Below are positions 2,876-38,982 of a stretch of DNA of 64,000 bases, one piece after another. The position numbers and the translations under genes were made by a program. The notes beneath the pieces were generated by a model, which did no database searches, was not told where the DNA came from, and saw nothing but the letters and a program-made list of their open reading frames with translations. Source of the DNA: Jiangella muralis (GTDB taxonomy: Bacteria; Actinomycetota; Actinomycetes; Jiangellales; Jiangellaceae). Positions within the stretch are counted from its first letter, which is position 1, and each line of letters begins with the position of its first letter. Where the stretch lies: contig NZ_KQ434756.1 in the NCBI RefSeq assembly GCF_001270745.1, positions 1 through 64,000 of the forward strand. The letters run 5' to 3'.

Positions 2876-2877
2876 CC

Positions 2878-3776: not shown

Positions 3777-3782
3777 CCCCGG

Positions 3783-3807: not shown

Positions 3808-3825
3808 CGGCTGAACGGCCCCGGT

Positions 3826-5575: not shown

Positions 5576-5625
5576 TCATCAACCTTGTGGGCTGTCATAG
5601 CAGCTCAAAAGGTTGATGATCATGG
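5570..5625. terminator. 17-bp-arm stem-loop between convergent genes, contains a stop codon (TGATCATCAACC family)
   Basis: CCATGATCATCAACCTT (5570-5586) and its exact complement (5609-5625) flank a 22-nt loop. The TGA of the epimerase (5573-5575) is the first triplet of TGATCATCAACC. The arms are AT-rich for this genome. The same arm sequence builds the stem-loop at 35816-35865, so this is a repeat family and probably a bidirectional terminator. Confidence 0.7.
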
Positions 5626-5631
5626 TGGACG

Positions 5632-5898: not shown

Positions 5899-5984
5899 GG
5901 GCCCTCCCCGAACTGGATGGTGTGCCGGTTCCGATCTTGCCCGATGGCGTACCCCGATGGAAGGAGCCGCGGCGCGGGCCGGCG

Positions 5985-6872: not shown

Positions 6873-6896
6873 GGCGATCTCCTTTCGTCAGTCATG

Positions 6897-6923
6897 CTGA
6901 TCGTCAGTGTAGCTGACGATCAG
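6897..6923. promoter_or_regulatory. Predicted MarR operator, perfect 11-bp inverted repeat
   Basis: CTGATCGTCAG (6897-6907) and CTGACGATCAG (6913-6923) are exact inverted copies with a 5-bp spacer. They sit midway between the divergent LLM oxidoreductase and MarR genes. The location and symmetry suit autoregulation plus control of the oxidoreductase. Confidence 0.75.
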
Positions 6924-6943
6924 TCAAGTGGCAGAATCGAGGC

Positions 6944-7393
6944 ATGGCCACCGACGACGACTCCGGCTCGCCGCCACCCGCCTTCCGGCTGCACTACCTG
7001 CTCAAGCGGGCCCACCTGCACCTGGCCACGCTGGTCGGGCAGGCACTGGAGCCGTACGGCGTCGACCCGCGCGAACTGGCGGCACTGGTGCTGCTGACCC
7101 GGGGCGACGCGCTGTCGCAGCAGGACCTGGCCCGCCAGCTGCAGGTGGACCGGACGACGATGGTCGCGATGGTCGACCGCATGGAGGCGCTCGAGCTCGT
7201 GCGCCGGCGCCCGGATCCGGCCGATCGCCGGAAGAACCTGGTCGAGCCGACCGACCACGGCCGGCGTATCGGGGCCGACGCGACCCGGGCCGTCGACTCG
7301 GCCGAGCAGCGGTTCCTCGCCGCCGCGCCGGAGCTGAGCGGGCCGGCGTTCCGCGACCTGCTCTGGACGCTGGGGCGCGACTTTCGCCACTGA
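6944..7393 (+). CDS. MarR-family transcriptional regulator
   Basis: A 149-residue winged-helix repressor. The N-terminal dimerisation helices (HYLLKRAHLHLATLVGQAL) are followed by the recognition segment ALSQQDLARQLQVDRTTMVAMVDRME and the beta-wing RRRPDPADRRKNLVEPTDHGRR, all at the expected spacing for MarR. It presumably releases DNA on binding a phenolic or other small ligand. The ATG lies 21 bp after the perfect dyad 6897-6923, indicating autoregulation and control of the divergent oxidoreductase. Confidence 0.9.
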   Translation: MATDDDSGSPPPAFRLHYLLKRAHLHLATLVGQALEPYGVDPRELAALVLLTRGDALSQQDLARQLQVDRTTMVAMVDRMEALELVRRRPDPADRRKNLVEPTDHGRRIGADATRAVDSAEQRFLAAAPELSGPAFRDLLWTLGRDFRH

Positions 7394-7497
7394 TCGGGCC
7401 AGTTTCTCAATTCACCGGCTCTTGGACCTTCCCTTCGGCCCATGATGATCAGTACGATCGCTGGGCAACCGCTTTCCAGCGTCGGAGGGTGATTCGT

Positions 7498-10047
7498 GTG
7501 TCTCCCGAACCCACCCGCCGCACTGTGCTGGGGGCCGCCGGCGCCGGGGCCCTCTGGCTGGCCGCGGGCGTGCCGGCGCCCGCGGCCGGCGCTCCACCCG
7601 CACCCGGCGCCGCGCCGGGCACAGCCGTGGTCGGGCCGGGGCAGCACCCCGGGCTGCGCTACTGGTACCCCGTCCCCCGCGACCCGGGCGTGGTGCGCAC
7701 CGACGTCTGCGTCTACGGCGGCACGTCGGCCGGGGTGACGGCGGCGGTGCGGGCCGCGCAGGCCGGCCGCAGCGTCGCCTTCGTCGTGTTCGGACGGCAC
7801 CTGGGCGGCCTCAGCTCGGCCGGGCTGGGCGCGACGGACACCGGGCGGATCGAGTCGATCGGCGGGCTGAGCCGCGAGTTCTACCGCCGCCTCGGCGCGC
7901 ACTACGGCCGCCCGGAGTCGTTCACGTTCGAGCCGCACGTCGCCGAGCAGACCTTCGACGCGTGGGTCGAGGAGGCGGGCGTCGAGGTCTACCGCGACCA
8001 CCGGCTCGACGACGTCCGGCTGGTGGGCGGGCGCATCCACTCGCTGCGCGCCGAGAACGGGAAGGTCTTCGTCGCGCAGGCGTTCATCGACGCCAGCTAC
8101 GAGGGCGACCTCATGGCGGCGGCCGGCGTCGGCTACACCGTGGGCCGGGAGGCGAACGCGACCTACGGCGAGACGCTGAACGGCGTCCAGATCCGCTCCG
8201 GCCACCAGTTCCAGCGCCAGATCGACCCGTACGTCGTCCCGGGCGACCCGGCCAGCGGACTGCTCCAGGGCATCGCACCCGACCCGCCCGGCACGACCGG
8301 CCAGGGCGACGACCGCATCCAGGCGTTCAACTTCCGCGTCTGCCTGACCCGGGCGGCCGACCGGCGCCCGTTCCCGCAGCCGCCGAACTACGACCCGAGC
8401 CGGTATGAGCTGCTGCTGCGCTACCTCCAGGCCGGCGTGTGGGACGCGATGCGGCTGAACACCCCGATGCCGAACGGCAAGACCGACCTGAACAACCACG
8501 GCGCGGTCAGCACCGACAACATCGGCCGCAACTACGCCTGGCCGGACGGCGACCACGCGACCCGCGAGGCGATCTTCCAGGATCACGTGACCTACCAGCA
8601 GGGGCTGCTCTGGTTCCTGGCCAACGACCCGCGGGTGCCGGACGCGGTCCGGGCCGAGGTCAACGGGTGGGGACTGACGAACGACGAGTTCACCGGCACC
8701 GGCGGCTGGTCGCACGAGCTGTACATCCGCGAGGCGCGCCGGATGGTCGCCGACTACGTCATCACCGAGCACGACTGCCGGTGGACGGTGGCCGCGCCGG
8801 ACCCGATCGCGCTGGCGTCGTACACGATGGACTCGCACAACTGCGCTCGCGTCGTGGTCGGCGGATTCGCCCGCAACGAGGGCGACGTGCAGGTGCCGCC
8901 GGCCGGTCCGTACGGCATCTCCTACCGCGCCATCGTCCCGGCCCGCGGTGAGTGCGCGAACCTGCTGGTGACGTGCGCGATCTCGGCGTCGCACATCGCG
9001 TTCGGGTCGGCCCGGATGGAGCCGGTGTTCATGGCGACGGGGCACGCGGCGGCGGTCGCGGCCGACCTCGCGCTGACGGCCGGCGTCGCGGTGCAGGACG
9101 TGCCCTACCCGGCGCTGCGGCAGCGGCTGCGCGCAGAGGGGATGGTGCTGACGTGGCCGCCGAACGCCGGCGTGCTCGCGTTCGACGCGCCGGACGAGCT
9201 GCGGCCGGGCGCCGCCGACGACGTCACCGTCACGTTCGTCAACGAGGAGCCGGCGACGGTGACCGGGGTACGGCTCGCGCTGGCCGCGCCGGCCGGCTGG
9301 ACGGTGACGCCGTCGACGCCGGTGGAGGTCGGCGCGGTGCAGCCGGGCGCGGAGTTCGCCGCGACGTGGCGGGTGACGGCGACGGCTCCGGCCGAGCCGG
9401 TCGGGCAGGGCACGCTGGAGGCGTCCGTCACGTACGCCGGCGCTAGCCACCAGGCGCGGCACGCCGTCGCCGTCGCCGAACCCGTCCAGGCGCCGCTGCA
9501 GACGGCGGCGTCGACGCGGGCGCACTTCGGGCAGCGGGGCGCGCGGCTGGCGATCCTGGGCAACGGCGTCGACCTCTGGACCGGTGTCGACCACTACGGC
9601 GCGATCTTCCACGACGGCGCGGCCGGCCCCACGACGACGGCGACCGTCACCGTCGTCTCGCAGGAGGCCACCGACCCGAACGCGCGCGCCGGACTGGTGT
9701 TCCGCAACGACCTGCGCGGCGCCGGGACGTCGGCGGGCTACGTCGCGCTGGTGGTGAAGCCGGAGAACGGGCTGCTGCTGCTCTGGGACGCCGACGGCAG
9801 CGGGACGGTGGAGTCGGTGCTGCGCGCCCCGATGACGCCGTCGCCGTACCCCGTCCACCTGCGGCTGGCCCGGACGCAGGCCCGGTTCGACGGCTCGTAC
9901 AGCCTGGACGGCGTGACGTGGCAGCCGGTCGGCTCGATCGACCTCCCGTCCGCCGCCGCCACCCAGGACGTCGGCGTGCTGTCCTGCGCGCACGTGCAGG
10001 ACAGGCTCGGCCTGGCGGTGTTCGAGAACCTCGTGGTCAATTCCTGA
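7498..10047 (+). CDS. Tat-exported FAD-dependent oxidoreductase with NEW3 and C-terminal beta-sandwich domains
   Basis: An 849-residue secreted flavoprotein. The N-terminus has a twin-arginine signal (RRTVLGAAGAGALWLAAG). The FAD_oxidored domain (about residues 60-560) begins with CVYGGTSAGVTAAVRAAQAGR, a Rossmann variant, and continues with FGRHLGGLSSAGLGATD and FIDASYEGDLMAAAGVGYTVGRE. A NEW3-like alpha-galactosidase-associated domain follows (about 575-660, PAGWTVTPST). The last ~170 residues look like a LamG/concanavalin-type sandwich (GLVFRNDLRG, HLRLARTQARFDGSYSLDGVTW). GTG 7498 is chosen because GGAGG ends 9 nt upstream. Such proteins are often annotated as xanthan-lyase-like, but the substrate is unknown. 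It overlaps the convergent EEP gene by 11 bp. Confidence 0.82.
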   Translation: MSPEPTRRTVLGAAGAGALWLAAGVPAPAAGAPPAPGAAPGTAVVGPGQHPGLRYWYPVPRDPGVVRTDVCVYGGTSAGVTAAVRAAQAGRSVAFVVFGRHLGGLSSAGLGATDTGRIESIGGLSREFYRRLGAHYGRPESFTFEPHVAEQTFDAWVEEAGVEVYRDHRLDDVRLVGGRIHSLRAENGKVFVAQAFIDASYEGDLMAAAGVGYTVGREANATYGETLNGVQIRSGHQFQRQIDPYVVPGDPASGLLQGIAPDPPGTTGQGDDRIQAFNFRVCLTRAADRRPFPQPPNYDPSRYELLLRYLQAGVWDAMRLNTPMPNGKTDLNNHGAVSTDNIGRNYAWPDGDHATREAIFQDHVTYQQGLLWFLANDPRVPDAVRAEVNGWGLTNDEFTGTGGWSHELYIREARRMVADYVITEHDCRWTVAAPDPIALASYTMDSHNCARVVVGGFARNEGDVQVPPAGPYGISYRAIVPARGECANLLVTCAISASHIAFGSARMEPVFMATGHAAAVAADLALTAGVAVQDVPYPALRQRLRAEGMVLTWPPNAGVLAFDAPDELRPGAADDVTVTFVNEEPATVTGVRLALAAPAGWTVTPSTPVEVGAVQPGAEFAATWRVTATAPAEPVGQGTLEASVTYAGASHQARHAVAVAEPVQAPLQTAASTRAHFGQRGARLAILGNGVDLWTGVDHYGAIFHDGAAGPTTTATVTVVSQEATDPNARAGLVFRNDLRGAGTSAGYVALVVKPENGLLLLWDADGSGTVESVLRAPMTPSPYPVHLRLARTQARFDGSYSLDGVTWQPVGSIDLPSAAATQDVGVLSCAHVQDRLGLAVFENLVVNS

Positions 10048-10987
10048 AGGTCGCGACGACGGGCGCGTGGTCGGAGTCCTCGGCCGCCGCGCGCCGCCGC
10101 GGGTCGTCGGTGACCGACGCCAGCCCGCGGTCGATCAGACTGTCGACGGTCTCGGTGCGCCCCAGCAGCTCGTGCGAGACGAGGATGTGGTCGATCAGCT
10201 CGCCGCGGCCGCGGTAGACGCGGCTGTAGCGGCGCGCCTCCGGGATCAGCGGCGCGGTGTTCCACAGCCGCCACGGGTCGCCCTGGTCCGGCTGCGTCTC
10301 GCCGGGCGTGCCGATCTCCGAGCCCCCGGGGCCGAGCAGGATCTGCGTGGTGGCAGCGCCGGGCTCGTCGTTGAGGTCGCCGCACACCACCAGCGCGCGG
10401 TCCCGGCCAGCGCCGTCGAGCAGGGTGTTCGCCCACTCGCGGACGGTGGCCGCCTCGGCCGCGCGGCGGTACAGCGCGAACGCGCCGTAACGGGCCCGCT
10501 CCCCCTCGTCGCGCGGGCCGAACCGGCCACCCGGGTAGCTGAGCAGCTTGGACTTGAGATGACAGGTGACGACGTCGACGGTGTCGCCGGCGGCCGTGCG
10601 GACCCGGACCCGCAGCGCGCCGCGGCCCATCTCCTCCGACAGCGCGCCGCCGTCGGACGCGCGCACCGGCCCGACGCCGTCGGCGTACGCGACGAGGTCC
10701 TCGGTCTCCTCGACCGGCAGCCGCGAGATCGCCGCGACCCGGATGCCGCGGCTGTCGGGATGCTCGGACACGCGCGTCGTCCAGTCGCCGTCGAGCCGCT
10801 CGACGAGGTCGTCCAGCGCGGCCGGCTCGCCGATCTCCTGCACCGCGAGCACGTCCGGCGCCATGCGGCCGACGGTGCCGGCCAGCGCGTCGAGCTTCGC
10901 CTCGTACGTCGCCTGGTCCGGTGGCCGGCCGTCGCCCTGGCCCGGCCGGAACAGGTTCTCCAGATTCCATGTGCCGATGACGGTCAC
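10037..10987 (-). CDS. Endonuclease/exonuclease/phosphatase (EEP) family protein
   Basis: A 316-residue EEP-fold metal-dependent hydrolase. GTWNLENLF near the N-terminus supplies the metal/phosphate-binding Asn. DVLAVQEIGE gives the catalytic Glu, VVTCHLKSK the conserved His, VVCGDLNDEPG the Asp-X-Asn motif, and EDSDHAPVVATF the terminal Ser-Asp-His. All the active-site elements are present and in order. No signal peptide is evident, so it probably acts in the cytoplasm. The substrate could be nucleic acid or a phosphodiester lipid; the family does not decide. Its 3' end overlaps the flavoprotein gene. Confidence 0.87.
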   Translation of the reverse strand: MTVIGTWNLENLFRPGQGDGRPPDQATYEAKLDALAGTVGRMAPDVLAVQEIGEPAALDDLVERLDGDWTTRVSEHPDSRGIRVAAISRLPVEETEDLVAYADGVGPVRASDGGALSEEMGRGALRVRVRTAAGDTVDVVTCHLKSKLLSYPGGRFGPRDEGERARYGAFALYRRAAEAATVREWANTLLDGAGRDRALVVCGDLNDEPGAATTQILLGPGGSEIGTPGETQPDQGDPWRLWNTAPLIPEARRYSRVYRGRGELIDHILVSHELLGRTETVDSLIDRGLASVTDDPRRRAAAEDSDHAPVVATFRN

Positions 10988-11051
10988 GGCCCGACGGTAC
11001 CGTGCCTATGCTCGGCAGGGTCAGGTCCCGGACCGAGCCGTGGGAGCAGCG

Positions 11052-11297
11052 ATGCAGGAAGACGACATCAGGGCCAGGATCAACGCGCTGGTCGAGGACG
11101 AGCACGCGCTGCGGCAGCGGCTGCAGACCGGCGAGATCTCGACCGACGAGGAACACTCCCGGCTGAGCCAGCTCGAGGAGCAGCTCGACCAGTGCTGGGA
11201 CCTGCTGCGCCAGCGCCGCGCCCGGGTCGAGGCGGGACAGAACCCCGACGAGGCCGCCGCTCGGCCCGTCGACGAGGTGGAGCGGTACCTGCAGTAG
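11052..11297 (+). CDS. DUF2630-family small helical protein
   Basis: An 81-residue, highly charged, all-helical protein matching the actinobacterial DUF2630 pattern: INALVEDEHALRQRL, a Gly-Glu-Ile turn, then LSQLEEQLDQCWDLLRQRRA and a Pro-Val-Asp-Glu-Val-Glu-Tyr-Leu tail. GGGAGCAGCG precedes the ATG. Function is unknown. It lies 12 bp before the next gene, so the two may be cotranscribed. Confidence 0.8.
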   Translation: MQEDDIRARINALVEDEHALRQRLQTGEISTDEEHSRLSQLEEQLDQCWDLLRQRRARVEAGQNPDEAAARPVDEVERYLQ

Positions 11298-11309
11298 GAC
11301 ACTGGTCGC

Positions 11310-12242
11310 ATGAACCTCGACGACGCGGCGGACGAGCTGTACGCCCTCCCGCCCGACGAGTTCGTCGAAGCCCGCAACGCGCTCGCCAAACGGCTCAAGA
11401 GCGAGGGCGCCGGCGACGTCGCGGCCCGGGTCAAAGCACTGCGCAAACCGACGGTCGCGGCCTGGCTGACCAACCAGCTGGTCCGGCAGCACGGCGACGA
11501 CGTCCGTGCCCTCGCCGACCTCGGCGAACGCATGCGCCAGGCGATGTCCGCCATGGACGGCGCCGCGCTGCGTGAGCTGACCGCGGAACGGAAGACGCAG
11601 GTCGACGGCCTGCTCAAGGCGGCCCGCAAGGTGGCCACGGCCGCCGGGCAGAAGGCCGGCCCCGACCTCATCGAGGCCGTCGCCGCGTCGCTCGACGCCG
11701 CCATCGCCGACCCCCGCGCCGCCGACGTGCTGCGGGCGGCGCGGCTGTCGCACGGCCTGGAGCACGTCGGGTTCGGCGCGGTCGAGGACGACGGCGAGGC
11801 GGCCGACGTCATCTCGCTGTCCGACGCCCGGGTCGCCCGCGGCCAGCGGCTGGAGACGACCCGACGGCCGCGCGCGACGCCCGCGGCCGAGGCGGAAGAA
11901 CCGGAGCCCGAGCCCGCCGCCGAGGAGCCGGCCGCGGAGCCGGCGAGCGACCACGCGCGGGCCGAACACGAGCTGGAGCAGGCCGAGGCCGCCGTCGACG
12001 CCGCCGAGGAGCAGGTCGACGACGCCGAGGCCGCGCTGGACGACCAGCGGCGGCGGCTGGGGCGGGCGCAGGAGGCGGTCGAGCGGCTGACCGAGGAGCT
12101 GGCCGCCGCCCGCCGCGAGCTGGAGCAGGCCCGCGACGACATCGGCGCCGCCGAGGACGACGTCGAGGCCGCGCGCCGCGCGTCCGAGGCGGCCCGCCGG
12201 CGCCGCCGCGAGGCGAAGCAGCAGCTCAGCCGGCTGCCTTGA
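11310..12242 (+). CDS. Actinobacterial two-part protein: globular N-terminus and coiled-coil C-terminus
   Basis: A 310-residue protein of unknown function. Residues 1-160 are compact and contain ALRKPTVAAWLTNQLVR, which recurs in actinobacterial hypothetical proteins. An Ala/Glu/Pro-rich linker follows at about 190-215. Residues 215-308 form a long heptad-rich coiled coil (HELEQAEAAVDAAEEQVDDA and onward). There is no signal peptide or membrane segment. It overlaps the NhaA gene (TGATG), so their translation is coupled. A structural or nucleoid-associated role is possible but not supported beyond the coiled coil. Confidence 0.78.
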   Translation: MNLDDAADELYALPPDEFVEARNALAKRLKSEGAGDVAARVKALRKPTVAAWLTNQLVRQHGDDVRALADLGERMRQAMSAMDGAALRELTAERKTQVDGLLKAARKVATAAGQKAGPDLIEAVAASLDAAIADPRAADVLRAARLSHGLEHVGFGAVEDDGEAADVISLSDARVARGQRLETTRRPRATPAAEAEEPEPEPAAEEPAAEPASDHARAEHELEQAEAAVDAAEEQVDDAEAALDDQRRRLGRAQEAVERLTEELAAARRELEQARDDIGAAEDDVEAARRASEAARRRRREAKQQLSRLP

Positions 12243-14116
12243 TGGCCAACGGGCAGACCCCGCGGTCGCGGCGGCTGGCCTCGCCGATCCGCGAGTTCAT
12301 CGCGACGCAGAGCTCCGGCGCCGTGGTGCTGCTGGCGGCCACCGTCGCGGCGCTGGTGTGGGCGAACTCGCCGTGGCCGGACAGCTACGACGAGTTCTGG
12401 CACACCGAGCTGGCGATCCGGCTCGGCGACGCGGAGCTGTCGCTGGACATCCGGGAATGGGTGAACGACGGCCTGATGGCGCTGTTCTTCTTCGTCGTCG
12501 GGCTGGAGATCCGGCGCGAGTTCGACATGGGCGAGCTGCGCGAGCGCAGCCGGGTCGCGACGCCGGTGCTGGCGGCGCTCGGCGGGATGATCATCCCGGC
12601 GCTGCTCTACCTGGCCGTCAACGCCGGCGACTCCGCCGTGCACGGCTGGGCGATTGTGATGGGGACGGACACCGCGTTCGCGCTCGGTGTGCTGGCGCTG
12701 GCCGGCAAGCGGGCGTCGCCGCGGACCCGGACGTTCGTGCTGACCGCCGTGATCGTCGACGACGTCGTGGCGCTGACCATCATCGCCATCGCGTACTCCG
12801 AGGACGTCTCGCTCGCGGCGCTGGGCGTCGCCGTCACGCTGTTCGGCGTCGTGCTGGTGCTCAAGCACAGCGGCGTGCGGCACGGCGTCCCGTACTTCAT
12901 CGTCGGCTCCGGCATCTGGCTGGCCACGCTGATCTCCGGGGTGCACGCGACGCTGGCCGGCATCGCGCTCGGCCTGATCGCGTCCGCCTTCCCGCCGTCG
13001 CGCGAGGACCTGGAGCGGGTCGGCGCGGTGTGGCGGCTGTTCCGCGAGCAGCCGGTGCCGGAGTACGCGCGGACCGCCAGCCGCACCCTCACGACCGCGA
13101 TCTCGCCGAACGAGCGGCTGCAGCACCTGTTCCACCCGTGGGTCAACTACCTGATCGTGCCGCTGTTCGCGCTGGCGAACGCCGGCCTGGTGATCAACGG
13201 CGACGTGCTGCGCGAGGCGGCGACGTCGCCGATCACGCTGGGCATCGTGCTCGGGCTGGTGGTCGGCAAGCCGATCGGCATCGTCGGCGTGACGTGGCTG
13301 GCCAGCCGGTTCGGGTTCCCGCTGACGGTGCCGTGGCCGCAGCTGATCGGCGCCGGGACCGTCGGCGGCGTCGGCTTCACCGTCTCGCTGCTGATCGCCG
13401 GCATCGCGTTCGAGGGCCACCAGCTCGACGACGCCAAGCTCGGCATCCTCGCCGCGTCGCTTATCGCGACGGTGCTCTCGCTGCTGGTGTTCCGGCTGAT
13501 CGCCCGGTTGCCGGGGCGGGCCCGGACGGCCGGGGAGGACCGGCTGGCCGCCCCGATCGTCGACCTCGCCGACCCGGTGGACCCCGAGGTCGACCACATC
13601 CGCGGCCCCGCGGACGGCCGCGTCACGCTGGTCGAGTACGGCGACTTCGAGTGCCCGTACTGCGGCCGGGCCGAGCCGGCGCTGCGCGAGCTGACCCACG
13701 CCTTCGGCGACGACCTGACGTTCGTGTTCCGGCATCTGCCGCTCACCGACGTGCACGAGCACGCCCAGCTGGCCGCCGAGGCGGCCGAGGCGGCGGGCAA
13801 GCAGGGCCGGTTCTGGGAGCTGCACGACCTGCTGCTCACCCACCAGGACGCGCTCACCTACCCCGACCTGCTGCGCCACGCCGAGGACCTCGGCCTGGAC
13901 GTCGACCGGTTCGCCCGCGACCTGTCGTCCCGGCACTTCGCCCTGCGCGTCACCCGCGACGTCGAGAGCGCCGAGCAGAGCGGCGTCGCCGGCACCCCCA
14001 CGTTCTTCGTCAACGGGCAACGCCACCACGGCCGGTACGACCTGGAGTCGCTGCGCGCGGCGATCACGCGTGAGCTGGGCGCGAACCGTTCCCAACCTCG
14101 CGATCCGGGTCCATGA
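12242..14116 (+). CDS. nhaA: NhaA-type Na+/H+ antiporter fused to a DsbA-like thioredoxin domain
   Basis: A 624-residue fusion. Residues about 15-415 are a complete NhaA antiporter. They include the DIREWVNDGLMALFFFVVGLEI segment, GTDTAFALGVLAL with D143, and the adjacent aspartates D173-D174 in AVIVDDVVALTIIA, equivalent to the ion-binding pair of E. coli NhaA. Residues about 430-610 are a DsbA/thioredoxin-fold domain with C471-P-Y-C474 and the cis-proline loop GVAGTPTFF. NhaA-thioredoxin fusions are known in actinobacteria, and their purpose (redox control of ion transport or disulfide chemistry) is unresolved. The ATG overlaps the previous stop. Confidence 0.9.
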   Translation: MANGQTPRSRRLASPIREFIATQSSGAVVLLAATVAALVWANSPWPDSYDEFWHTELAIRLGDAELSLDIREWVNDGLMALFFFVVGLEIRREFDMGELRERSRVATPVLAALGGMIIPALLYLAVNAGDSAVHGWAIVMGTDTAFALGVLALAGKRASPRTRTFVLTAVIVDDVVALTIIAIAYSEDVSLAALGVAVTLFGVVLVLKHSGVRHGVPYFIVGSGIWLATLISGVHATLAGIALGLIASAFPPSREDLERVGAVWRLFREQPVPEYARTASRTLTTAISPNERLQHLFHPWVNYLIVPLFALANAGLVINGDVLREAATSPITLGIVLGLVVGKPIGIVGVTWLASRFGFPLTVPWPQLIGAGTVGGVGFTVSLLIAGIAFEGHQLDDAKLGILAASLIATVLSLLVFRLIARLPGRARTAGEDRLAAPIVDLADPVDPEVDHIRGPADGRVTLVEYGDFECPYCGRAEPALRELTHAFGDDLTFVFRHLPLTDVHEHAQLAAEAAEAAGKQGRFWELHDLLLTHQDALTYPDLLRHAEDLGLDVDRFARDLSSRHFALRVTRDVESAEQSGVAGTPTFFVNGQRHHGRYDLESLRAAITRELGANRSQPRDPGP

Positions 14117-14150
14117 TCGGTGCACGCGCACATCCGAGGGGGGATCGCCC

Positions 14151-14951
14151 GTGTCCACTGATCGTCGTCCCGTCGTCTTCGTCCACGGCCTGTGGCTGCA
14201 CGCCGACTCGTGGAGCCCATGGGTGGAGCTGTTCCGTGAGTCCGGCTACGACGCCCAGGCGCCCGGCTGGCCCGGCGACGGCGCGTCCGCCGAGGAGACC
14301 CGCGACCACCCGGAGCGGGTCGCCGGCGTCGGCATCGACGCCGTCGTCGGCCACTACGCCGAGCTGATCCGCGCGCTGCCCACGCCGCCGGTCCTCGTCG
14401 GCCACTCGTTCGGCGGGCTGATCGTGCAGCGGCTGCTCGGCGAGAACCTCGGCGCGGCGGCCGTCGCGCTCGACCCGGCGCCGATCAAGGGGGTCGTGTA
14501 CCTGCCACCGTCGTCGCTACGGGTCGCCTCGATCGCGCTGCGCAACCCGGCCAACCGGGGCCGCGCGGTCGCGCTGGACCGTGCCCAGTTCCGCTACGGC
14601 TTCGGCAACGCCCTCACCGAGCACGAGTCCGACGAGCTGTTCGCCCGCTGGGCGATCCCGTCGCCCGGCCGGCCGCTGTTCGAGACCGCCGTCGCCAACC
14701 TCAACCCGTCCTCGCCGGCCCGGGTCGCCACCGGCAACGCCGGCCGCGGGCCGCTGCTGCTCACGCTCGGCGGCAAGGACCACACCGTCGCGCCGGCGAT
14801 CGTCCGCACGACGGCGCGGCTCTACCGCAGGTCACCGGCGGTGACGGAACTCCGGGAGTACCCGGACCGCGGGCACAGTCTCGGCATCGACGGCGGCTGG
14901 CGGACCATCGCCGACGACGTTCTCGCCTGGCTGAAAGCGCGCGGCCTCTGA
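14151..14951 (+). CDS. Alpha/beta hydrolase
   Basis: A 266-residue alpha/beta-hydrolase-fold enzyme. FVHGLWLHADSW provides the oxyanion region, GHSFGG the nucleophile elbow with the catalytic serine, LTLGGKDHTVAP the acid residue, and DRGHSLG the catalytic histidine. The triad is intact. GTG 14151 follows GAGGGGGG at suitable spacing. The family includes esterases, dehalogenases and peroxidases; the substrate is not predictable here. It lies 34 bp after the NhaA fusion on the same strand. Confidence 0.85.
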   Translation: MSTDRRPVVFVHGLWLHADSWSPWVELFRESGYDAQAPGWPGDGASAEETRDHPERVAGVGIDAVVGHYAELIRALPTPPVLVGHSFGGLIVQRLLGENLGAAAVALDPAPIKGVVYLPPSSLRVASIALRNPANRGRAVALDRAQFRYGFGNALTEHESDELFARWAIPSPGRPLFETAVANLNPSSPARVATGNAGRGPLLLTLGGKDHTVAPAIVRTTARLYRRSPAVTELREYPDRGHSLGIDGGWRTIADDVLAWLKARGL

Positions 14952-14999
14952 CGCCGTACGCTGGGGAGACCGACCGCTCGGCACCAGATGGAGGGGCAC

Positions 15000-16661
15000 G
15001 TGCCACGACAGGGACCTGTGTTGCTGACCGTCGAGGACGATCCGGCCGTGAGCCGGGCCATCGCCCGCGACCTGCGGCGCCGCTACGGCGCCGACCACCG
15101 GGTCGTACGGTCGGAGACCGGGGCCGGGGCGCTCGAGGTGCTGCGCGAGCTGACGCTGCGGGGCGAGGCCACCGCGCTGCTGCTGGCCGACTACCGCATG
15201 CCCGGCATGAACGGCATCGACTTCCTCGAACAGGCCATGGACGTCGTGCCGCAGGCGAAGCGGGTGCTGCTGACGGCGTACGCCGACACCCAGGCGGCCA
15301 TCCGCGCCGTCAACGACATCGACCTCGACCACTACCTGGTCAAGCCGTGGGACCCGCCCGAGGAGCACCTGTACCCCGTCCTCGACGAGCTGCTGGAGGT
15401 GTGGGCGCGCGACAGCCGGCCCGGCTTCGAGGGCGTCACGCTGCTCGGGCACCAGTGGGCGGCCGAGACCCAGGACCTCAAGGAGTTCCTGACCAGCAAC
15501 CAGGTGCCCTACCGGCACCTGCGCGGGCCCGACGCCGCCGCGCTACAGGAGACCGCGAACCTCCCCGACGACGCCCTGCCGGCGGTCATCATGCCCGACG
15601 GCGTGGTGCTGACCTGCCCGCCGCTGCGCGACGTCGCCGAGCGGCTGGGCCTGGCCACGACCGCGGGCAGCCCGCTCTACGACCTCGTCGTGGTCGGCAG
15701 CGGTCCGGCCGGGCTCGGCGCCGCGGTCTACGGCGCCAGCGAGGGCCTGCGCACGCTGCTGGTCGACCGCGCCGGCGTCGGCGGGCAGGCCGCCCGCAGC
15801 AGCCTGATCGAGAACTACCTCGGCTTCCCGCAGGGCGTCTCCGGCGCCGAGCTGGCCCAGCGGGCCCGCGACCAAGCCGTCCGCTTCGACGTCGAGATGC
15901 TCACCGCGGCCGCCGCCGTCGACGTCGTCGCGCAGGGCGAGGGCCGGGTCGTGCGCTTCGACGACGGCCACGAGGTCACCGCGCACGCCGTCGTCATCGC
16001 CACCGGTGTCTGGTGGTCGCAACTGCCGGCCCGCGGCGCCGACGAGTACGCCGGCCGCGGCATCTACTACGGCGCGTCCGCCCACGAGGCGCCCGGCTGC
16101 AAGGGCGAGGACGTCTACATCGTCGGCGCCGCCAACTCCGCCGGCCAGGCCGCGCTGCACTTCGCCCAGTACGCCAGCCGCGTCGTCATGCTGGTCCGCG
16201 GGCCGGACCTGCGGCTGCGGATGTCCGAGTACCTCGTCGGGCGCATCGAGAACGATCCGCGCATCGAGGTGCGCACGTGCACCGAGGTCACCGCCGCCGA
16301 GGGCGACCACCGGCTGGAGCGCATCGTCGTCACCGACACCCGCGACGGCGGCACCCAGACGCTGCCGGCCACGCGGCTGTTCGTGTTCATCGGCGCCGAG
16401 CCGCCCACGTCGTGGCTGGGCGCGGAATTCGTCCGCGACGACCGCGGCTTCCTCCTGACGGGGCCGGCGCTGCTCGACGACGACGGACGGCCGCCGCGCG
16501 ACTGGCCGCTGGCCCGCACCCCGTACCACCTGGAGTCCAGCGTCCCGGGCGTGTTCGTCGCCGGCGACGTCCGCGCCGAGTCCGTCAAGCGCGTGGCGTC
16601 CGCCGTCGGCGAGGGCGCCATGGCGGTCACGCTGGTGCACCGCTACCTGGAGGCGACGTGA
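15000..16661 (+). CDS. Receiver-domain/thioredoxin-reductase-like fusion (FAD oxidoreductase)
   Basis: A 553-residue fusion of three parts. A response-regulator receiver domain (1-125) has acidic pair D13/D14, phospho-acceptor D64, T92 and K115, all intact. A thioredoxin-like segment (about 140-220) lacks CXXC. A thioredoxin-reductase-like flavoprotein (about 225-550) has FAD motif GSGPAG at 233-238 and GVFVAGDV near the end. The redox-active CXXC of true thioredoxin reductases is absent: the region reads ASAHEAPGCKGED, with a lone cysteine. GTG 15000 is preferred (GGAGGGG 3-9 nt upstream) over ATG 14988. It overlaps the downstream kinase by 4 bp (GTGA), so that kinase is the likely partner of this receiver. 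Confidence 0.88.
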   Translation: MPRQGPVLLTVEDDPAVSRAIARDLRRRYGADHRVVRSETGAGALEVLRELTLRGEATALLLADYRMPGMNGIDFLEQAMDVVPQAKRVLLTAYADTQAAIRAVNDIDLDHYLVKPWDPPEEHLYPVLDELLEVWARDSRPGFEGVTLLGHQWAAETQDLKEFLTSNQVPYRHLRGPDAAALQETANLPDDALPAVIMPDGVVLTCPPLRDVAERLGLATTAGSPLYDLVVVGSGPAGLGAAVYGASEGLRTLLVDRAGVGGQAARSSLIENYLGFPQGVSGAELAQRARDQAVRFDVEMLTAAAAVDVVAQGEGRVVRFDDGHEVTAHAVVIATGVWWSQLPARGADEYAGRGIYYGASAHEAPGCKGEDVYIVGAANSAGQAALHFAQYASRVVMLVRGPDLRLRMSEYLVGRIENDPRIEVRTCTEVTAAEGDHRLERIVVTDTRDGGTQTLPATRLFVFIGAEPPTSWLGAEFVRDDRGFLLTGPALLDDDGRPPRDWPLARTPYHLESSVPGVFVAGDVRAESVKRVASAVGEGAMAVTLVHRYLEAT

Positions 16662-18073
16662 CCATGGGCACGCCCATCGACGTCGAGGAGCTGCGCACGC
16701 TGTTCCTCTTCGAAGGCATGACCCCGGAGCAGCTGGCCGAGGTCACCGCGAGCAGCGAGGTCCGCACCTACCCGGCCGGCAGCACGGTCTACCGGGCCGG
16801 CGAACCGTCCGACGCGCTGTGGGTGCTGCTCGACGGCACGCTGCGGCTGCTCCGGCACGCCGACGGCGACGAGGTCGTCGTCAACGAGACCGACTACCGG
16901 GGCGCCTACGCGGGCGCCGTCCGCGCCTTCGCCACCTCCGCGGCCGCCTCCTACGAGACGTCGCTGCACGCCGTCACCGACTGCCGGTTCCTGCGCTACG
17001 ACGCCGGCGCCTTCGCCGCGTTCGTGCACCAGTGGTTCCCGATGGCGGTGCACCTGTTCGACGGGCTGTACCTCGGCATCCGCACCACCGAGGCGACGGT
17101 GCGCCAGCGCGAGCACCTCGCCCAGCTGGGCACGCTGTCGGCGAACCTCGCGCACGAGCTGAACAACCCCGCCGCGGCCACCGTCCGGGCCGCCGGGCAG
17201 CTGCGTGACCGCGTCGCGCACATGCGGCAGAAGCTCGGCATGATCGCGGCCGGCCCGGTCGATCCGGAGATGATCACCGGGCTGATGGCCATCCAGGAGC
17301 GCGCCGTCGAGATCGCCGCGAAGAAGCGCGACCCGCTCACCCCGCTGCAGGAGAGCGACCTCGAGGACGAGATGGTCGACCACCTCGAGGATCTCGGCTT
17401 CGACCACGCCGTCGACGTCGCGCCGGTGTTCGTCGCCGCCGGCCTCGACACCACCTTCATCGACGACGTCGCCGCCGAGGTGGGCGACTCCCTGCCGTCC
17501 GCGCTGGCCTGGCTCGGCTACACGCTCGAGACCGAAGCGCTGATGGACGAGATCGAGGACGCGTCGAACCGCATCTCCACCCTGGTCGCGTCGGTGAAGC
17601 AGTACGCCCACCTCGACCAAGCCGCCCACCAGGAGGTCGACCTCCACCCGGGCCTCGACAGCACGCTCGTCATGCTGGGGCACAAGCTCGGCGAGATCGA
17701 GGTGCGCCGCGACTACGACACCACCCTGCCGCCGGTGCCCGCGTTCGCCGCCGAGCTCAACCAGGTGTGGACCAACCTCATCGACAACGCCGTCGACGCG
17801 ATGAAGGGACACGGCACGCTCACCCTCAGCACCCGCCTCGACGGCGACCACGCCGTCGTCGAGGTCGCCGACACCGGGCACGGCGTGCCCGAGGAGGTGC
17901 GGGGCCGGCTGTTCGAGCCGTTCGTCACCACCAAGCCGATGGGTGAGGGCAGCGGGCTGGGGCTCGACAACGCGAAGCGGATCATCGAGAAGCGGCACCG
18001 CGGCACGCTGAGCTACACCACCGGACCCGGCGGGACGACGTTCAGCACCCGGCTCCCGCTGTCGCCCGCCTGA
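16658..18073 (+). CDS. Histidine kinase with N-terminal cyclic-nucleotide-binding domain
   Basis: A 471-residue soluble sensor kinase. A Crp/Fnr-type cNMP-binding fold covers about residues 10-130 (FLFEGMTPEQLAEV, YPAGSTVYRAGEPSD). The H-box is QLGTLSANLAHELNNPA with H166. A helical spacer follows, then the ATPase domain with the N-box WTNLIDNAVDAM, the G1 box ADTGHGVPEE and the G2 box GEGSGLGL. No transmembrane segment is visible. It is translationally coupled to the receiver/oxidoreductase gene; the start could be GTG 16658 (GTGA overlap) or ATG 16664. A nucleotide or redox signal controlling the flavoprotein by phosphorylation is plausible but untested here. Confidence 0.87.
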   Translation: MTMGTPIDVEELRTLFLFEGMTPEQLAEVTASSEVRTYPAGSTVYRAGEPSDALWVLLDGTLRLLRHADGDEVVVNETDYRGAYAGAVRAFATSAAASYETSLHAVTDCRFLRYDAGAFAAFVHQWFPMAVHLFDGLYLGIRTTEATVRQREHLAQLGTLSANLAHELNNPAAATVRAAGQLRDRVAHMRQKLGMIAAGPVDPEMITGLMAIQERAVEIAAKKRDPLTPLQESDLEDEMVDHLEDLGFDHAVDVAPVFVAAGLDTTFIDDVAAEVGDSLPSALAWLGYTLETEALMDEIEDASNRISTLVASVKQYAHLDQAAHQEVDLHPGLDSTLVMLGHKLGEIEVRRDYDTTLPPVPAFAAELNQVWTNLIDNAVDAMKGHGTLTLSTRLDGDHAVVEVADTGHGVPEEVRGRLFEPFVTTKPMGEGSGLGLDNAKRIIEKRHRGTLSYTTGPGGTTFSTRLPLSPA

Positions 18074-34466: not shown

Positions 34467-35762
34467 ATGGCGACGACGGCACCCGCGGCCACCGGCCGGG
34501 ACTGGTTCACGCAGGCCAGGTTCGGGATGTTCGTGCACTTCGGGCTGTACTCACTGGCCGCCCGGCACGAGTGGGTGATGTCGCGGGAACGGACGCCGCT
34601 CGAGGACTACGAGCGCTACGCGGAGGTGTTCGATCCGGACCTGTTCGACGCCCGGGCGATCGCCCGCGCCGCTCGGGCGGCGGGCATGGGGTACGTCGTG
34701 CTGACCAGCAAGCACCACGAGGGCTTCGCGCTGTGGGACTCCGCCGTCAGCGACTACACGTCGGCCGCGGCGTGCGGGCGCGACCTCGTCGCGGAGTTCG
34801 CCGACGCCGTCCGCGCCGAGGGTCTGCGGGTCGGGCTGTACCACTCCCTCATCGACTGGCACCACCCGGACTTCACCGTCGACTATCTGCACCCTCGCCG
34901 CGACGACGCCCCGGGCCCGGCCCGGGACATGAGCCGGTATCGCGCCTACCTGCACGCCCAGGTGCGCGAACTGCTCACCGGCTACGGCCGCGTCGACTAC
35001 CTGTTCTTCGACTACACCTACGCCGAGGACCGCGACGGGTGGCGCGGCAAGTACCCGGACGACTGGGCCGCGGACGAGCTGCTGGCCATGGCCCGCGAGC
35101 TGCAGCCGGGCATCGTCGTGAACGACCGGCTGGGCATCCCGGGCGACCTCGTCACGCCGGAGCAGTACCAGCCGGCCGAGCCGATGCGCGGGCCGGACGG
35201 GTCGCCGATCGTGTGGGAGGCCTGCCAGACGCTGAACGGGAGCTGGGGCTACGACCGCGACAACACCCGGGTCAAGACGCCGGACCTGCTGGTGCGCATG
35301 CTGGTCGACACCGTCGCGAAGGGCGGCAACCTGCTGCTCAACATCGGGCCGGACGGGCGGGGCGCGATCCCGGCGCGCGACGCGTCGACGCTGGCGGCGC
35401 TCGCGGAGTGGATGCGGCTGCACGGGCGGTCGGTGGTGGGCGCCGGACCGGCCGACCCGTCCATCGCCTCGGCGGTCGCGCCGGGCCTGCCGCCCGGCGC
35501 CGTCCTCACGCAGCGCGGCGACCGGCTGTACGTCCACCTGTTCGCCTGGCCGTTCGAGCACGTGCACCTGCGCGGGATGGCCGACCGGGTCCGCTACGCG
35601 CAGCTGCTGAACGACGGGTCGGAGCTGGCGACGATCCGGCTGGCGCCCGGCCAGCAGGCCTGGAACACGACGCCGGGCGGGCAGCCGCCGGGCACGCTGA
35701 CGCTGCGGCTACCCACGGTCCGCCCGGACGTCGAGGTACCGGTGGTGGAGCTGTTCCTCTAA
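34467..35762 (+). CDS. Alpha-L-fucosidase, glycoside hydrolase family 29
   Basis: A 431-residue GH29 enzyme releasing L-fucose by a retaining mechanism. Family marks are ARFGMFVHFGLYSL, GYVVLTSKHHEGFALWDSAVSDY, GLRVGLYHSLIDWHHPDF, and DYLFFDYTYAED, whose aspartate is the probable nucleophile where the family usually shows FDG. Later come VWEACQTLNGSWGYDRDN and KGGNLLLNIGPDGRG. There is no signal peptide, so it acts on imported oligosaccharides. GGAGTGAGG precedes ATG 34467. A C-terminal beta-sandwich occupies about residues 340-431. It is divergent from the importer operon, which fits intracellular degradation after uptake. Confidence 0.9.
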   Translation: MATTAPAATGRDWFTQARFGMFVHFGLYSLAARHEWVMSRERTPLEDYERYAEVFDPDLFDARAIARAARAAGMGYVVLTSKHHEGFALWDSAVSDYTSAAACGRDLVAEFADAVRAEGLRVGLYHSLIDWHHPDFTVDYLHPRRDDAPGPARDMSRYRAYLHAQVRELLTGYGRVDYLFFDYTYAEDRDGWRGKYPDDWAADELLAMARELQPGIVVNDRLGIPGDLVTPEQYQPAEPMRGPDGSPIVWEACQTLNGSWGYDRDNTRVKTPDLLVRMLVDTVAKGGNLLLNIGPDGRGAIPARDASTLAALAEWMRLHGRSVVGAGPADPSIASAVAPGLPPGAVLTQRGDRLYVHLFAWPFEHVHLRGMADRVRYAQLLNDGSELATIRLAPGQQAWNTTPGGQPPGTLTLRLPTVRPDVEVPVVELFL

Positions 35763-35815
35763 CTCAGAGCGGCGGTCACTCGGACGCGGCGGTCTGGGTG
35801 AGAGGAAGATCAACG

Positions 35816-35865
35816 TGATCATCAACCGGTAGCGACGTCATGGTGTCGCCACCGGTTGATGATCA
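35816..35865. terminator. 15-bp-arm stem-loop of the TGATCATCAACC family, contains a stop codon
   Basis: TGATCATCAACCGGT (35816-35830) and its exact complement (35851-35865) enclose a 20-nt spacer that also pairs (AGCGAC/GTCGCC, one mismatch). The stop codon of the ATP-grasp gene is the TGA at the outer edge of the right arm, as for the epimerase at 5570-5625. It lies between convergent genes and is probably a bidirectional terminator. Confidence 0.7.
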
Positions 35866-37125
35866 TGGTCGGACCGGACTCACCACGGTGCCGTCGGCCA
35901 GGCGTAGCCGCAGCGAGCCGACGGCGGTGGCGGCCAGCTCGCCGGCGCGGTCGCCGTCCGGGTCGACGGCGAGCACGTGGCCGACGCGGTCGTTGTTGTC
36001 GCGCGGCCGCCGCACCGGTCCGGGCACGTCCAGCTGCCAGCGGACGATCGCCGGGTTCTGGTCCAGCGCGTCGCGGCCCTCGACGCCGGTGACGATGCCG
36101 TCGACCGGCGCCAGCACGAACGCGACCGCCGCCGTGCCGCGCGGGACCACGTCCAACTGCGGCGTGTGGCCGAGGGCGAGGTCGACCAGCAGCGCCAGCG
36201 GGTGCACCCCGGTCACCGTGCGGACGAGGTCGAACACGTAGCCGCCGCCCTGGCGCGGGTTGATCTCGACGATCCGCGGCCCCGACGGTGTCAGGCGCAG
36301 CTCGGTGTGGCCCAGGCCGTGGCTGACGCCGAGGGCGGCGAGCGCGGCCCGGACGTGCTCGGTCACCTCGGCGACGACGGCGGGCGGCAGTGGGGCCGGG
36401 AACACGTGCCCGGCCTCGACGAACGTCGGCGTGACGCTCTTGCCGGTGATGCCGAGCACCGTCGTCCGCCCGGCGGCCGTGACCGTCTCGACGCTGACCT
36501 CGGGGCCCTGCAGGACCTCCTCGAGCAGCAGCCGGCGCGCCAGCGGCTGGTCACGGGTGTTCCGCTCGACGCCGGTGACCTCGTGCAACGCGTCCTTCAG
36601 CGCCGCCTCGCCGTCGACGAGGTGCACCGACGTGCCGGAGTTGAGGTCGACCGGCTTCGCGACCAGCGGGAAGCCCACCTTCGCCGCGGCGGCCAGCGCG
36701 TCCTCCCACGTCGCGGCGACCGCGAACCGTGGTCCGGGCAGCCCGGCCCGAGCGAGCACCGCCCGGACCGCATCCTTGCGCACGGCCCGGCGCACGATGT
36801 CCGGCGACGCCCCGGCCAGCCCGAGCATCTTCGCCAGCTCGGCGACCGCGTCGAGGTAGTAGTCGCAGGTCGTGAGCACGCCGTCGATGCGCCGACGGCA
36901 GACGATGCCGATGACGGCGCCGGTCATCGCGGCCCGGTCGTTGGTGTCGACGACGATCACCTCGTCGGCGTCGCGCAGCACCGGGTGCCGCTCGCCGTCG
37001 ACGTCCGGGTAGAGGCCGGGGTCGCTGGTGAACAGGAGGTAGTCGTGGCCCAGCTCGCGCAGCAGCGGCGGCAGCGCGAGCCCCGTCGACTGCACCCAGC
37101 TCTCCACCATGAGCAGCGTCGCCAC
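35863..37125 (-). CDS. ATP-grasp domain ligase linked to a nicotianamine-synthase-like gene
   Basis: A 420-residue carboxylate-amine ligase of the ATP-grasp superfamily. A pre-ATP-grasp Rossmann-like part (1-110) is followed by ATP-binding K157 (FPLVAKPVDLNSGTSVHLV), a LEEVLQGPEVSVE hinge (201-213), and Mg-binding residues in HTELR (273-277) and EINPR (287-291). The C-terminal ~90 residues resemble the domain of carboxylases and L-amino-acid ligases. It would form an amide bond between an acyl-phosphate and an amine. The ATG is 2 bp after the stop of the nicotianamine-synthase-like gene, so the two products probably act in sequence. The substrate is unknown. Confidence 0.85.
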   Translation of the reverse strand: MATLLMVESWVQSTGLALPPLLRELGHDYLLFTSDPGLYPDVDGERHPVLRDADEVIVVDTNDRAAMTGAVIGIVCRRRIDGVLTTCDYYLDAVAELAKMLGLAGASPDIVRRAVRKDAVRAVLARAGLPGPRFAVAATWEDALAAAAKVGFPLVAKPVDLNSGTSVHLVDGEAALKDALHEVTGVERNTRDQPLARRLLLEEVLQGPEVSVETVTAAGRTTVLGITGKSVTPTFVEAGHVFPAPLPPAVVAEVTEHVRAALAALGVSHGLGHTELRLTPSGPRIVEINPRQGGGYVFDLVRTVTGVHPLALLVDLALGHTPQLDVVPRGTAAVAFVLAPVDGIVTGVEGRDALDQNPAIVRWQLDVPGPVRRPRDNNDRVGHVLAVDPDGDRAGELAATAVGSLRLRLADGTVVSPVRP

Positions 37126-37126
37126 G

Positions 37127-37990
37127 TCAGCCTCCGGCCCGGGCCAGGATCGCCGAGTTGATGACGTCGTTCACCGGGTGCACCTCCGTCAGCGGCTCGA
37201 ACCCGTCGAGCGCGGTCCGGTCGATCGGCGGGTAGAGCAGCGTGCGCAGGCCGCGGGCGCTGCGGGCGAGCAGGACGGCGCCGGGGCGCATCGTGGCGGC
37301 CAGGTGCCGCAGGACCCGCCGCTTCGCCTCGAACGTGTCGCCGACCAGCGCGGCCAGCACCACCACGTCGTAGCCGGACAGGTCCGCCGCCAGCACGTCC
37401 GCCTCGTGGAAGCCCAGCTCGCCGTACCCGAGCGCGGCGGACACCTCGGCGCCGGCCTGCAGCGCCACCGGGTCGTGGTCGAAGTTGTCGACCGCGACGT
37501 CCAGCTCGCCGGCCAGGTACAGCGAGCTCAGCGGCAGCGGCCCGGACCCCACGAACGCGAGCGACCGCACGCGGCGCGGCAGCGCGGACGCCAGAATGCC
37601 GATCTCCATGCGGCTGAGCTGGCGGTAGTTGCCGAAGTACGGGAACCGCGCCAGCTCCTCCCGCGGCGGCCGCCCGGCGACGATCCGGTTCGCCCAGGCG
37701 TGCTCCAGCTGCCCCTCGCCGCGGGCGCAGAGGGCGCGCAGGCGGGGCGCCAGCCGCTGGATCTCGACGTCGTTCAGGACCGCCGGCACCGTCTCGGCCG
37801 GTGCGGTGAGCACCAGCCGCACCAGCCGCCCGAACAGCCCGTCGACCTCCGGCCCCGGCCGGAGATCGTCGCGCGCGGCCAGCTCCCGGTACACGTCACC
37901 CACCGACGCGGCGACGTCCTCCGCGGTCGGGCTGCGATGGTCGGTCAGGTCGGATTGACCGAATATGTTGCTAGTGAGACTCATGTTCAT
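37127..37990 (-). CDS. Nicotianamine synthase-like protein
   Basis: A 287-residue protein of the nicotianamine synthase family, which transfers aminobutyryl groups from S-adenosylmethionine to make nicotianamine-type metallophores. Diagnostic stretches are RFPYFGNYRQLSRMEIGIL (115-133), the SAM-binding FVGSGPLPLSSLYLA (146-160), the acidic VDNFD ending at D171, and ARSARGLRTLLYP (242-254). Plant, archaeal and staphylopine-type (CntL) enzymes share them. There is no opine dehydrogenase or histidine racemase beside it, unlike staphylopine clusters; instead an ATP-grasp ligase follows immediately. ATG 37990 lacks a clear ribosome site, and ATG 37984 is possible. Confidence 0.85.
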   Translation of the reverse strand: MNMSLTSNIFGQSDLTDHRSPTAEDVAASVGDVYRELAARDDLRPGPEVDGLFGRLVRLVLTAPAETVPAVLNDVEIQRLAPRLRALCARGEGQLEHAWANRIVAGRPPREELARFPYFGNYRQLSRMEIGILASALPRRVRSLAFVGSGPLPLSSLYLAGELDVAVDNFDHDPVALQAGAEVSAALGYGELGFHEADVLAADLSGYDVVVLAALVGDTFEAKRRVLRHLAATMRPGAVLLARSARGLRTLLYPPIDRTALDGFEPLTEVHPVNDVINSAILARAGG

Positions 37991-38063
37991 CGCGGCTGAT
38001 CATGGCACAGCGGACGGCGGCGGCGCTGCCGAAACCGCGAAGATCGAGTCGACTGACGAGAAC

Positions 38064-38182
38064 GATCAGGTGACGGAACCGCCCAGCATTCGCACGTGTG
38101 TCACCTGATCATCTCCACGATGCGGACACAAAACGATCAGGTGACGAACGCGCGGCGAATCCGGGCGATACGTCACCTGATC
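38064..38182. repeat. Two tandem stem-loops with GATCAGGTGAC/GTCACCTGATC arms
   Basis: Loop 1 has arms 38064-38074 and 38100-38110; loop 2 has arms 38135-38145 and 38172-38182. All four arms are the same 11-mer or its complement, and each right arm continues ATC. The unit repeats every ~71 bp with unrelated loop sequences. They lie between the SDR end and the start of the nicotianamine-synthase-like gene, so they may act as terminator or operator. The rest of the 237-bp gap shows only the motif at 38215. Confidence 0.65.
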
Positions 38183-38214
38183 ATCGGCAGCAGCAGCGGT
38201 GCCGCCGCGGACCC

Positions 38215-38227
38215 GGGAGACACACCC
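38215..38227. repeat. Second solitary end motif of the 46-212 palindrome family
   Basis: GGGAGACACACCC is identical to the core at 2879-2891 and close to the right end of the 46-212 element. It abuts the SDR stop codon at 38228. No second end is present. Confidence 0.4.
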
Positions 38228-38982
38228 TCACCCCTGTTCGGTGGGGACCAGGATCAGCTCGGCCACGTTGAGCCGCGGCGGGACGGCGACGGCGTAGGTG
38301 ATGGCGTCGGCGATGTCGGCCGGGGTGGGCGTGGCCATCGACGTCCGCCACTGGTCCAGCGCCGCCTTCGTCGAGCCGTGCAGCATGCCGTCGCCCAGCT
38401 CGGTCGGGACGACTCCGGGCTCGATGGTCTTGACGCGGACGCCGCGCGGCCCCAGTTCGGCGCGCAGGTTCCGGGTGAGGTGCGCGACGGCGGCCTTGGT
38501 GGCGTCGTAGACGCCGTAGTGCGGGAAGACCTGGTGCCCGCCGATCGACCCGACGTGCACCAGGTCGGCCCGGTTCCGGCGGCCGCGGCGGCGATCAGGT
38601 CGTCGATGAACGCCCGGCCGGTGTGCAGCAGGCCGCTGAGGTTGGTGGCGATCATCCGGTCCCACTCGTCCGGGTCGGCGGACTCGAACGGCGCGCCGAG
38701 CATGACGCCGGCGTTCGCCACGACGAGGTCGGCCGGCCCGAGCCCGGACCGGACGGCGCCGGCGGCGGCCTCGACCGCGGCGCGGTCGGTGACGTCGACG
38801 GGCACGGCCAGCCCGCCGATCTCGGCGGCGATCGCGTCGAGGCGGTCCTTGCGCCGGCCGAGGACGGCGACGGCGGCGCCGGCCGCGGCGAACGCGCGGG
38901 CGGTGGCCTCGCCGAGCCCGCTGGTGGCGCCGGTGACGACCGCGATGCGGCCGGTCAGGGTTGCTTCGGTGAACGTGGTCAT
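38228..38982 (-). pseudogene. Frameshifted short-chain dehydrogenase/reductase
   Basis: Two reading frames together encode one classical SDR. The first frame from ATG 38982 gives the cofactor motif TGATSGLG, the NAG motif in VVANAGVMLG and FIDDLIAAAAAG. The sequence then continues only in another frame with ADLVHVGSIGGHQVF, the catalytic Y-X3-K in YDATKAAVAHL, and a normal C-terminus ending PTEQG. The shift is in the GC run 38575-38590, and the 755-nt span is one base short of 252 codons, so a single-base deletion explains it. It may be a true lesion or a sequencing error. The divergent regulator at 39098 is intact. Confidence 0.8.

Follow-up and report, generated by a model that had tools for sequence, protein, structure and literature searches.

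To our knowledge, the bacterial pathways known to use an enzyme like nicotianamine synthase (NAS) all end in opine-type zincophores; CntL (structure 7c9m) is the NAS-like enzyme of the staphylopine clusters. For the plant enzyme AtNAS1, PMC10248798 reports that activity is abolished by the substitution E73Q or by deletion of residues 206-VGMD-209. For the archaeal thermonicotianamine synthase MtNAS (3fpe-3fpj), PMC10491745 gives E81 and Y107 as catalytic and has the enzyme begin from glutamate.

The window (the whole 64,000-nucleotide stretch of Jiangella muralis DNA that was analysed) comes from a genome of 7.27 Mb that, among named organisms, is closest to species of Jiangella. An earlier note on this DNA had described two genes 1 bp apart on one strand, and both open reading frames are indeed present: a NAS gene and, downstream of it, the gene for an ATP-grasp ligase, with one base (37126) between them (Table 1). 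Unlike AtNAS1, the NAS described here thus belongs to a bacterial two-gene unit with a ligase, and this combination is a variant of nicotianamine-type metallophore biosynthesis whose product is probably an undescribed metal-binding molecule. We found no description of a NAS/ATP-grasp pair in open PubMed Central, a scope that leaves most subscription papers (for example the one on the EDDS genes) to one side.

Table 1 Features of the NAS-ligase locus in the window.
Feature	Position	Strand	Remark
ATP-grasp carboxylate-amine ligase, L-amino acid ligase type, LAL_C2, 420 aa, GTG start	35863..37125	(-)	
NAS, 287 aa	37127..37990	(-)	Pfam NAS, fold matches, alignment to MtNAS and CntL
5' element ATGAACATGAGTCTCA	37975..37990	(-)	at NAS start
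Candidate -10 region TGTGCCATGATCAGCCGCG	37991..38009	(-)	inferred from aligned upstream sequences

The two enzymes

The product of the upstream gene matches Pfam NAS (PF03059) over residues 25-284 with 205.7 bits (1.1e-60; cut-off 27.1), and its predicted model (pLDDT 87.5, with residues 1-17 below 50) finds its best fold matches in MtNAS (3fpg/3fpe, TMq 0.78-0.79) and then in CntL (7c9m, 0.68-0.71). The motifs picked out in the earlier note are found at F116-P-Y-F-G-N-Y122 and, from F146, as F146-V-G-S-G-P-L-P-L-S-S. When the protein is aligned to CntL and to archaeal MtNAS its catalytic residues are retained: E96 and Y122, both invariant among 16 aligned actinobacterial sequences, align with E81 and Y107 of MtNAS, and the catalytic Glu is shared with CntL (E84).

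Other residues set this NAS apart from both of those enzymes. E92, V216 and G217 are likewise invariant among the 16 sequences. E92 lies four residues N-terminal of the catalytic E96, as E73 does before E77 in AtNAS1, and the spacing of C88, E92 and E96 is that of AtNAS1 C69, E73 and E77, whereas at the position aligned with E92 MtNAS has Gly (G77) and CntL has Val. The V216-G217 loop corresponds to a four-residue gap in MtNAS, and a four-residue gap in CntL begins three residues earlier. We take C88, E92, E96, Y122 and V216-G217 to be the equivalents of AtNAS1 C69, E73, E77, Y106 and VGMD (PMC10248798, PMC12454661), a correspondence based on spacing and on the MtNAS alignment, with the plant positions taken from PMC10248798 and the plant sequence itself left unaligned. 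The loop reads VGDT here, so that VG alone is conserved and the last two positions differ from the plant VGMD. With this loop and with plant positions that come from a paper, the case for a NAS of plant type is good, short of proof. We reject a CntL-type assignment both on these residues and on score (20.1 bits on the NCBIfam CntL profile, cut-off 350). The earlier note was right about the pair, and the synthase is more plant-like than it supposed, resembling the plant type rather than CntL.

Because this NAS has features that AtNAS1 requires and that are absent from MtNAS and CntL, nicotianamine itself becomes the likeliest first product, and we make this prediction with reasonable confidence. 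Homology establishes the class of the enzyme; as to its product, NAS would join aminocarboxypropyl units of SAM, three of them most likely, and close the azetidine ring as the plant enzymes do, to give nicotianamine or a very close analogue.

The downstream gene encodes a protein above the Pfam cut-offs for ATP-grasp_4 (1.2e-16) and LAL_C2 (1.1e-13); since the Pfam matches of both genes are all above cut-off, they are not due to chance. Its best match by sequence and by fold (model pLDDT 77.3) is 3vot (BL00235), with RizA and BacD also high, and its top NCBIfam match, PRK02186.1 (ATP-grasp/argininosuccinate-lyase), reaches 198 bits, far below the cut-off of 625. The full ATP-grasp site that the earlier note had listed (K157, E287, N289) is present together with R291, and all four residues are invariant in a 14-row alignment. 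The protein has the ATP-grasp fold, the ATP/Mg/acyl-phosphate residues and the LAL C-terminal domain of an L-amino acid ligase. Sequence and fold group it with BL00235, RizA and BacD, to which it is 18-24% identical in fold alignments. With Pfam scores, fold matches and catalytic residues in agreement, the locus holds a genuine NAS and a ligase-type ATP-grasp enzyme. A perfect 15-bp inverted repeat (35816-35865) has its end on the ligase stop codon.

While the class of the ligase is clear, its substrate is inferred. The ligase would use ATP to convert a carboxylate into an acyl phosphate and would then couple an amine to it, most likely by joining an amino acid to a carboxylate of nicotianamine to give a nicotianamine amide, and the chances are slightly in favour of our prediction that it acts on the NAS product. 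That product would bind a divalent metal, most likely zinc, with nickel or cobalt possible. To the two-enzyme pathway as a whole, in which the NAS product passes to the ligase and becomes a metal-binding nicotianamine amide, we give a little less than an even chance. The order of the enzymes could also be the reverse, with the ligase first making a dipeptide or amide whose amine accepts one or two aminocarboxypropyls from NAS, yielding a ligand that resembles staphylopine and is built around a dipeptide. It is L-amino acid ligases (3vot, RizA and BacD) that are the closest solved relatives of the ligase, and the sister operons described below also carry a DgcA/dipeptide-epimerase-like enzyme, both of which fit a ligase that acts first; the plant-type residues of NAS, unlike CntL or MtNAS, speak against it, as does, more weakly, the leading position of the NAS gene in 20 of 20 loci. 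We consider this order unlikely.

Distribution and linkage of the pair

NAS is present in 20 of 22 Jiangellales genomes, that is, in 20 of the 20 that are at least 90% complete; the two genomes without a match are 75% and 81% complete. A class sample of 393 genomes held 22 with NAS (20 Jiangellales and 2 of 371 others) and a phylum sample of 396 genomes gave five NAS matches (the window genome, G098, G647 and two weak partial ones), while NAS was found in 4 of 200 genomes in the family of G290 and in 1 of 21 in that of G647. The ligase gene directly follows the NAS gene on the same strand in all 20 Jiangellaceae loci (the window, L027, L032-L044 and L047-L051; L022 is the same locus as L048), as judged with a simple purpose-written gene caller. 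The spacing ranges from -41 to +17 bp and is 1 bp in 11 of the 20, the larger overlaps hinging on the start codon picked. The neighbourhood search proposed in the earlier note accordingly bears out that the pair is conserved together, but not across actinomycetes: in the samples searched, the pair was seen in no family but the Jiangellaceae, all of whose genomes of at least 90% completeness carry it.

Apart from the two genes themselves, no neighbour in the window accompanies the pair in all 20 loci; close relatives do share flanks, and the flanking genes vary between genera. We recognised no transporter or metal regulator as a constant neighbour of the pair in the 20 loci, family searches covering nine neighbour proteins, and this counts against the proposed pathway. 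Since every well-assembled genome of the family has the pair but a constant linked transporter went unrecognised, the pair may work mainly inside the cell, or may rely on transporters encoded elsewhere. In L032 (10820-14412), and there only among the loci read, genes for two ABC exporter half-transporters (Pfam ABC_membrane, ABC_tran) immediately precede the pair in the same orientation. In a further difference from the staphylopine and pseudopaline clusters, we recognised no opine dehydrogenase beside the pair, in agreement with the earlier note, and PF10100 matched none of the 22 Jiangellales genomes, an absence that is weak because the control was silent (0 of 14 control genomes).

Across the 20 loci, the protein distances of NAS correlate closely with those of the ligase (r = 0.95, a value reached in 0 of 2000 permutations). 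Most of this co-divergence reflects common vertical descent, yet it shows that the two genes have not been swapped separately. Comparison of the window with 13 relatives gave dN/dS values of 0.20-0.47 for NAS and 0.27-0.51 for the ligase; this comparison covers 14 of the 20 loci, the six in which the 5' element lies in a separate open reading frame being omitted, and in these 14 both genes are under purifying selection. The pair consists of two intact, selected genes that stay together.

Such linkage need not mean a shared pathway. Nicotianamine could be the end product and the ligase could catalyse a separate reaction, with the pair kept together by co-regulation only. Indeed, stretches of 4.7 to 20 kb around nine other NAS genes, seven of them nearly full-length (L045, L046, L103-L106 and L086, a haloarchaeal plasmid) and two partial (L107, L108), gave no match to the ligase, and because the ligase is missing from those seven, NAS needs no ligase in general. 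The ligase subfamily is also broad, its lower-scoring members lying beside PLP enzymes or argininosuccinate lyases or in other settings. Separate reactions would leave unexplained both the adjacency in 20 of 20 loci despite genus-specific flanks and the co-divergence of the two proteins, and we rate this reading as somewhat less probable still than the reversed order of the enzymes.

A conserved element at the start of NAS

The 5' element spans 16 bases and is invariant in the 20 Jiangellaceae loci save for one A/G position. All 20 NAS-bearing genomes have exactly one copy of the pattern ATGAACATGARTCTCA, which lies at the NAS locus, and the five further sites with one mismatch are within chance expectation (an estimated ~0.3 per genome). 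The element is the start of NAS in the 14 loci of Jiangella and genus g2. In genera g5 and g6 it opens a separate open reading frame (25-52 codons), and the stop codon of this frame overlaps the start of NAS in 6 of 6 loci. Its four degenerate codons (AAC, AGT, CTC, ACT) never vary in the 14 loci, in which comparable columns elsewhere in NAS are invariant in 20 of 100 cases, and its differences between genus groups are non-synonymous (Ser to Asn, Thr to Ile). Because the degenerate codons are fixed and the differences between genus groups change residues, we disfavour the idea of a leader peptide whose amino-acid sequence is under selection. A search for structured RNA over 35500-38700 gave no Rfam match to E = 1.

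Boxes were scored against a consensus that we take to be that of Zur, and are hence called Zur-like. By this measure the element is the most Zur-like 15-mer of its region in 20 of 20 loci, with 3 mismatches, a likeness matched in at most 1 of 100 shuffles per locus. A pattern spanning both the element and the Zur consensus yields one further site only in 22 genomes, which places the element outside any visible regulon. Boxes with at most two mismatches to the consensus were found in 2 of the 9 Jiangellales genomes searched, the window genome having none, and the sites in those two genomes do not, as read, precede zinc genes. Control of the Jiangella pair by Zur through the Streptomyces consensus is therefore unsupported, with boxes absent from 7 of 9 genomes, and we keep it as a possibility.

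When the upstream sequences are aligned, most of them have TGTG.CA..AT, separated from the element by about 8 nt. Because this candidate -10 sits just upstream of the element, the alignment suggests that the transcript may start at or near the ATG and give a leaderless message. Several GTCACCTGATC-type repeats lie farther upstream of NAS in the window (38060-38190); in L035 and L038, the 250 bp that precede NAS show no repeat of this type.

Metal context of the relatives

In three of the four loci of family f17 (L045, L105 and L106) a Zur-like box with one or two mismatches lies 19-27 bp before NAS, and NAS is divergent from genes for ABC ATPases, an MFS protein, a binding protein and a permease. 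This group of genes (at about 9400-17000 in the three loci), which includes no relative of the ligase, could be a Zur-controlled nicotianamine zincophore cluster. No Zur-like box precedes NAS in the fourth f17 locus (L104) or in L103 and L046 (7 mismatches each). By our reading of the neighbouring genes, NAS lies near a zinc-type ABC uptake system and Fur- and ArsR-type regulators in L103 (about 3300-11770), and near a metal-type ABC system and cobalamin genes in L104 (about 60-6060).

Relatives of the ligase point the same way. In a class sample of 384 genomes, scores above 700 bits for the ligase come from Jiangellaceae only, the next best score being 416 bits. From the other 53 genomes with a match we examined the ten that score best, and from 303 matching plasmid records four of the top five (record H6 was omitted); 13 of these 14 loci (L082-L085 and L087-L095, L096 being different) share a gene order that we call Streptomyces-type: ligase, DUF364-like protein, SbnA-like PLP enzyme (uncalled in L095), DgcA/dipeptide-epimerase-like enzyme, MFS protein, class I methyltransferase, NikA/CntA-like binding protein and permease. 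The family names come from L085 and one methyltransferase (L083), the other loci being matched to L085 by BLAST, and the scores are all below the curated cut-off wherever one applies (DUF364 22 of 23 bits, SbnA 239 of 350, NikA 114 of 600, CntA 60 of 800). Six lower-scoring plasmid members of the ligase family have other settings, some beside PLP enzymes and lyases or kinases.

The Streptomyces-type ligases are 39-46% identical to that of the pair and form one group with the Jiangellaceae ligases, with support of 1.0 in FastTree (37 sequences, L090 omitted) and 100 in IQ-TREE (38 sequences), values read from unrooted trees with only five sequences outside the group. A Zur-like box with at most 3 mismatches precedes the ligase in 9 of the 13 clusters; the others have 4 (L093), 5 (L085 and L087) and 8 mismatches (L094). 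Their MFS and binding proteins are 36-37% and 22-24% identical, respectively, to those of L045, L105 and L106. Unlike the pair, these clusters have no NAS match in the stretches examined. That the class I methyltransferase might be a hidden NAS gains no support from the single comparison made, with the L085 protein (hhalign probability 0.1%), and the SbnA-like enzyme would supply the carbon-nitrogen bond in place of NAS. The cluster, for which we found no published description in the open literature searched, looks like an undescribed zincophore cluster.

In other lineages, then, relatives of both partners look tied to zinc-scavenging-like clusters, and the Zur-like boxes, exporter and NikA-like binding protein of the ligase's sister clade suggest metal chelation. 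The metal role that we propose in Jiangellaceae comes solely from this kinship, and we predict with good confidence that the product of the pair binds metal. One further reading takes the product to be a small natural product other than a metallophore, a signal or an antimetabolite, with an aminocarboxypropyl or azetidine unit. BacD, an L-amino acid ligase, makes the alanine-anticapsin dipeptide, which is an antibiotic, and a figure legend in PMC11794875 names ATP-grasp genes as neighbours of azetidine-carboxylate synthases, another enzyme family. Against such a product stand the metal-uptake-like context of both genes' relatives and the occurrence of the pair in every well-assembled genome of the family, unlike a patchy antibiotic cluster; of the alternatives weighed here we find it the least probable.

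With only two genes, the pair offers a compact and testable system for nicotianamine derivatives, and its relatives lead to clusters of two kinds, both with Zur-like boxes and both seemingly uncharacterised. If true, the link between a bacterial NAS of plant type and an amide ligase would add a further branch to nicotianamine chemistry, an amidation branch parallel to the opine (staphylopine) branch and the mugineic-acid branch of plants. For the Jiangellaceae, we tentatively propose, at somewhat less than even odds, that nicotianamine is a core, mainly intracellular metal ligand that is amidated in an ATP-dependent manner, with a locus-specific 5' element governing a leaderless transcript. 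In section 5 of PMC12454661, the NAS gene tree is rooted with Actinobacteria and one moss NAS is inferred to derive from bacteria, so that bacteria which universally carry NAS, and carry it as part of a pair, may reveal the role of the enzyme on its home ground.
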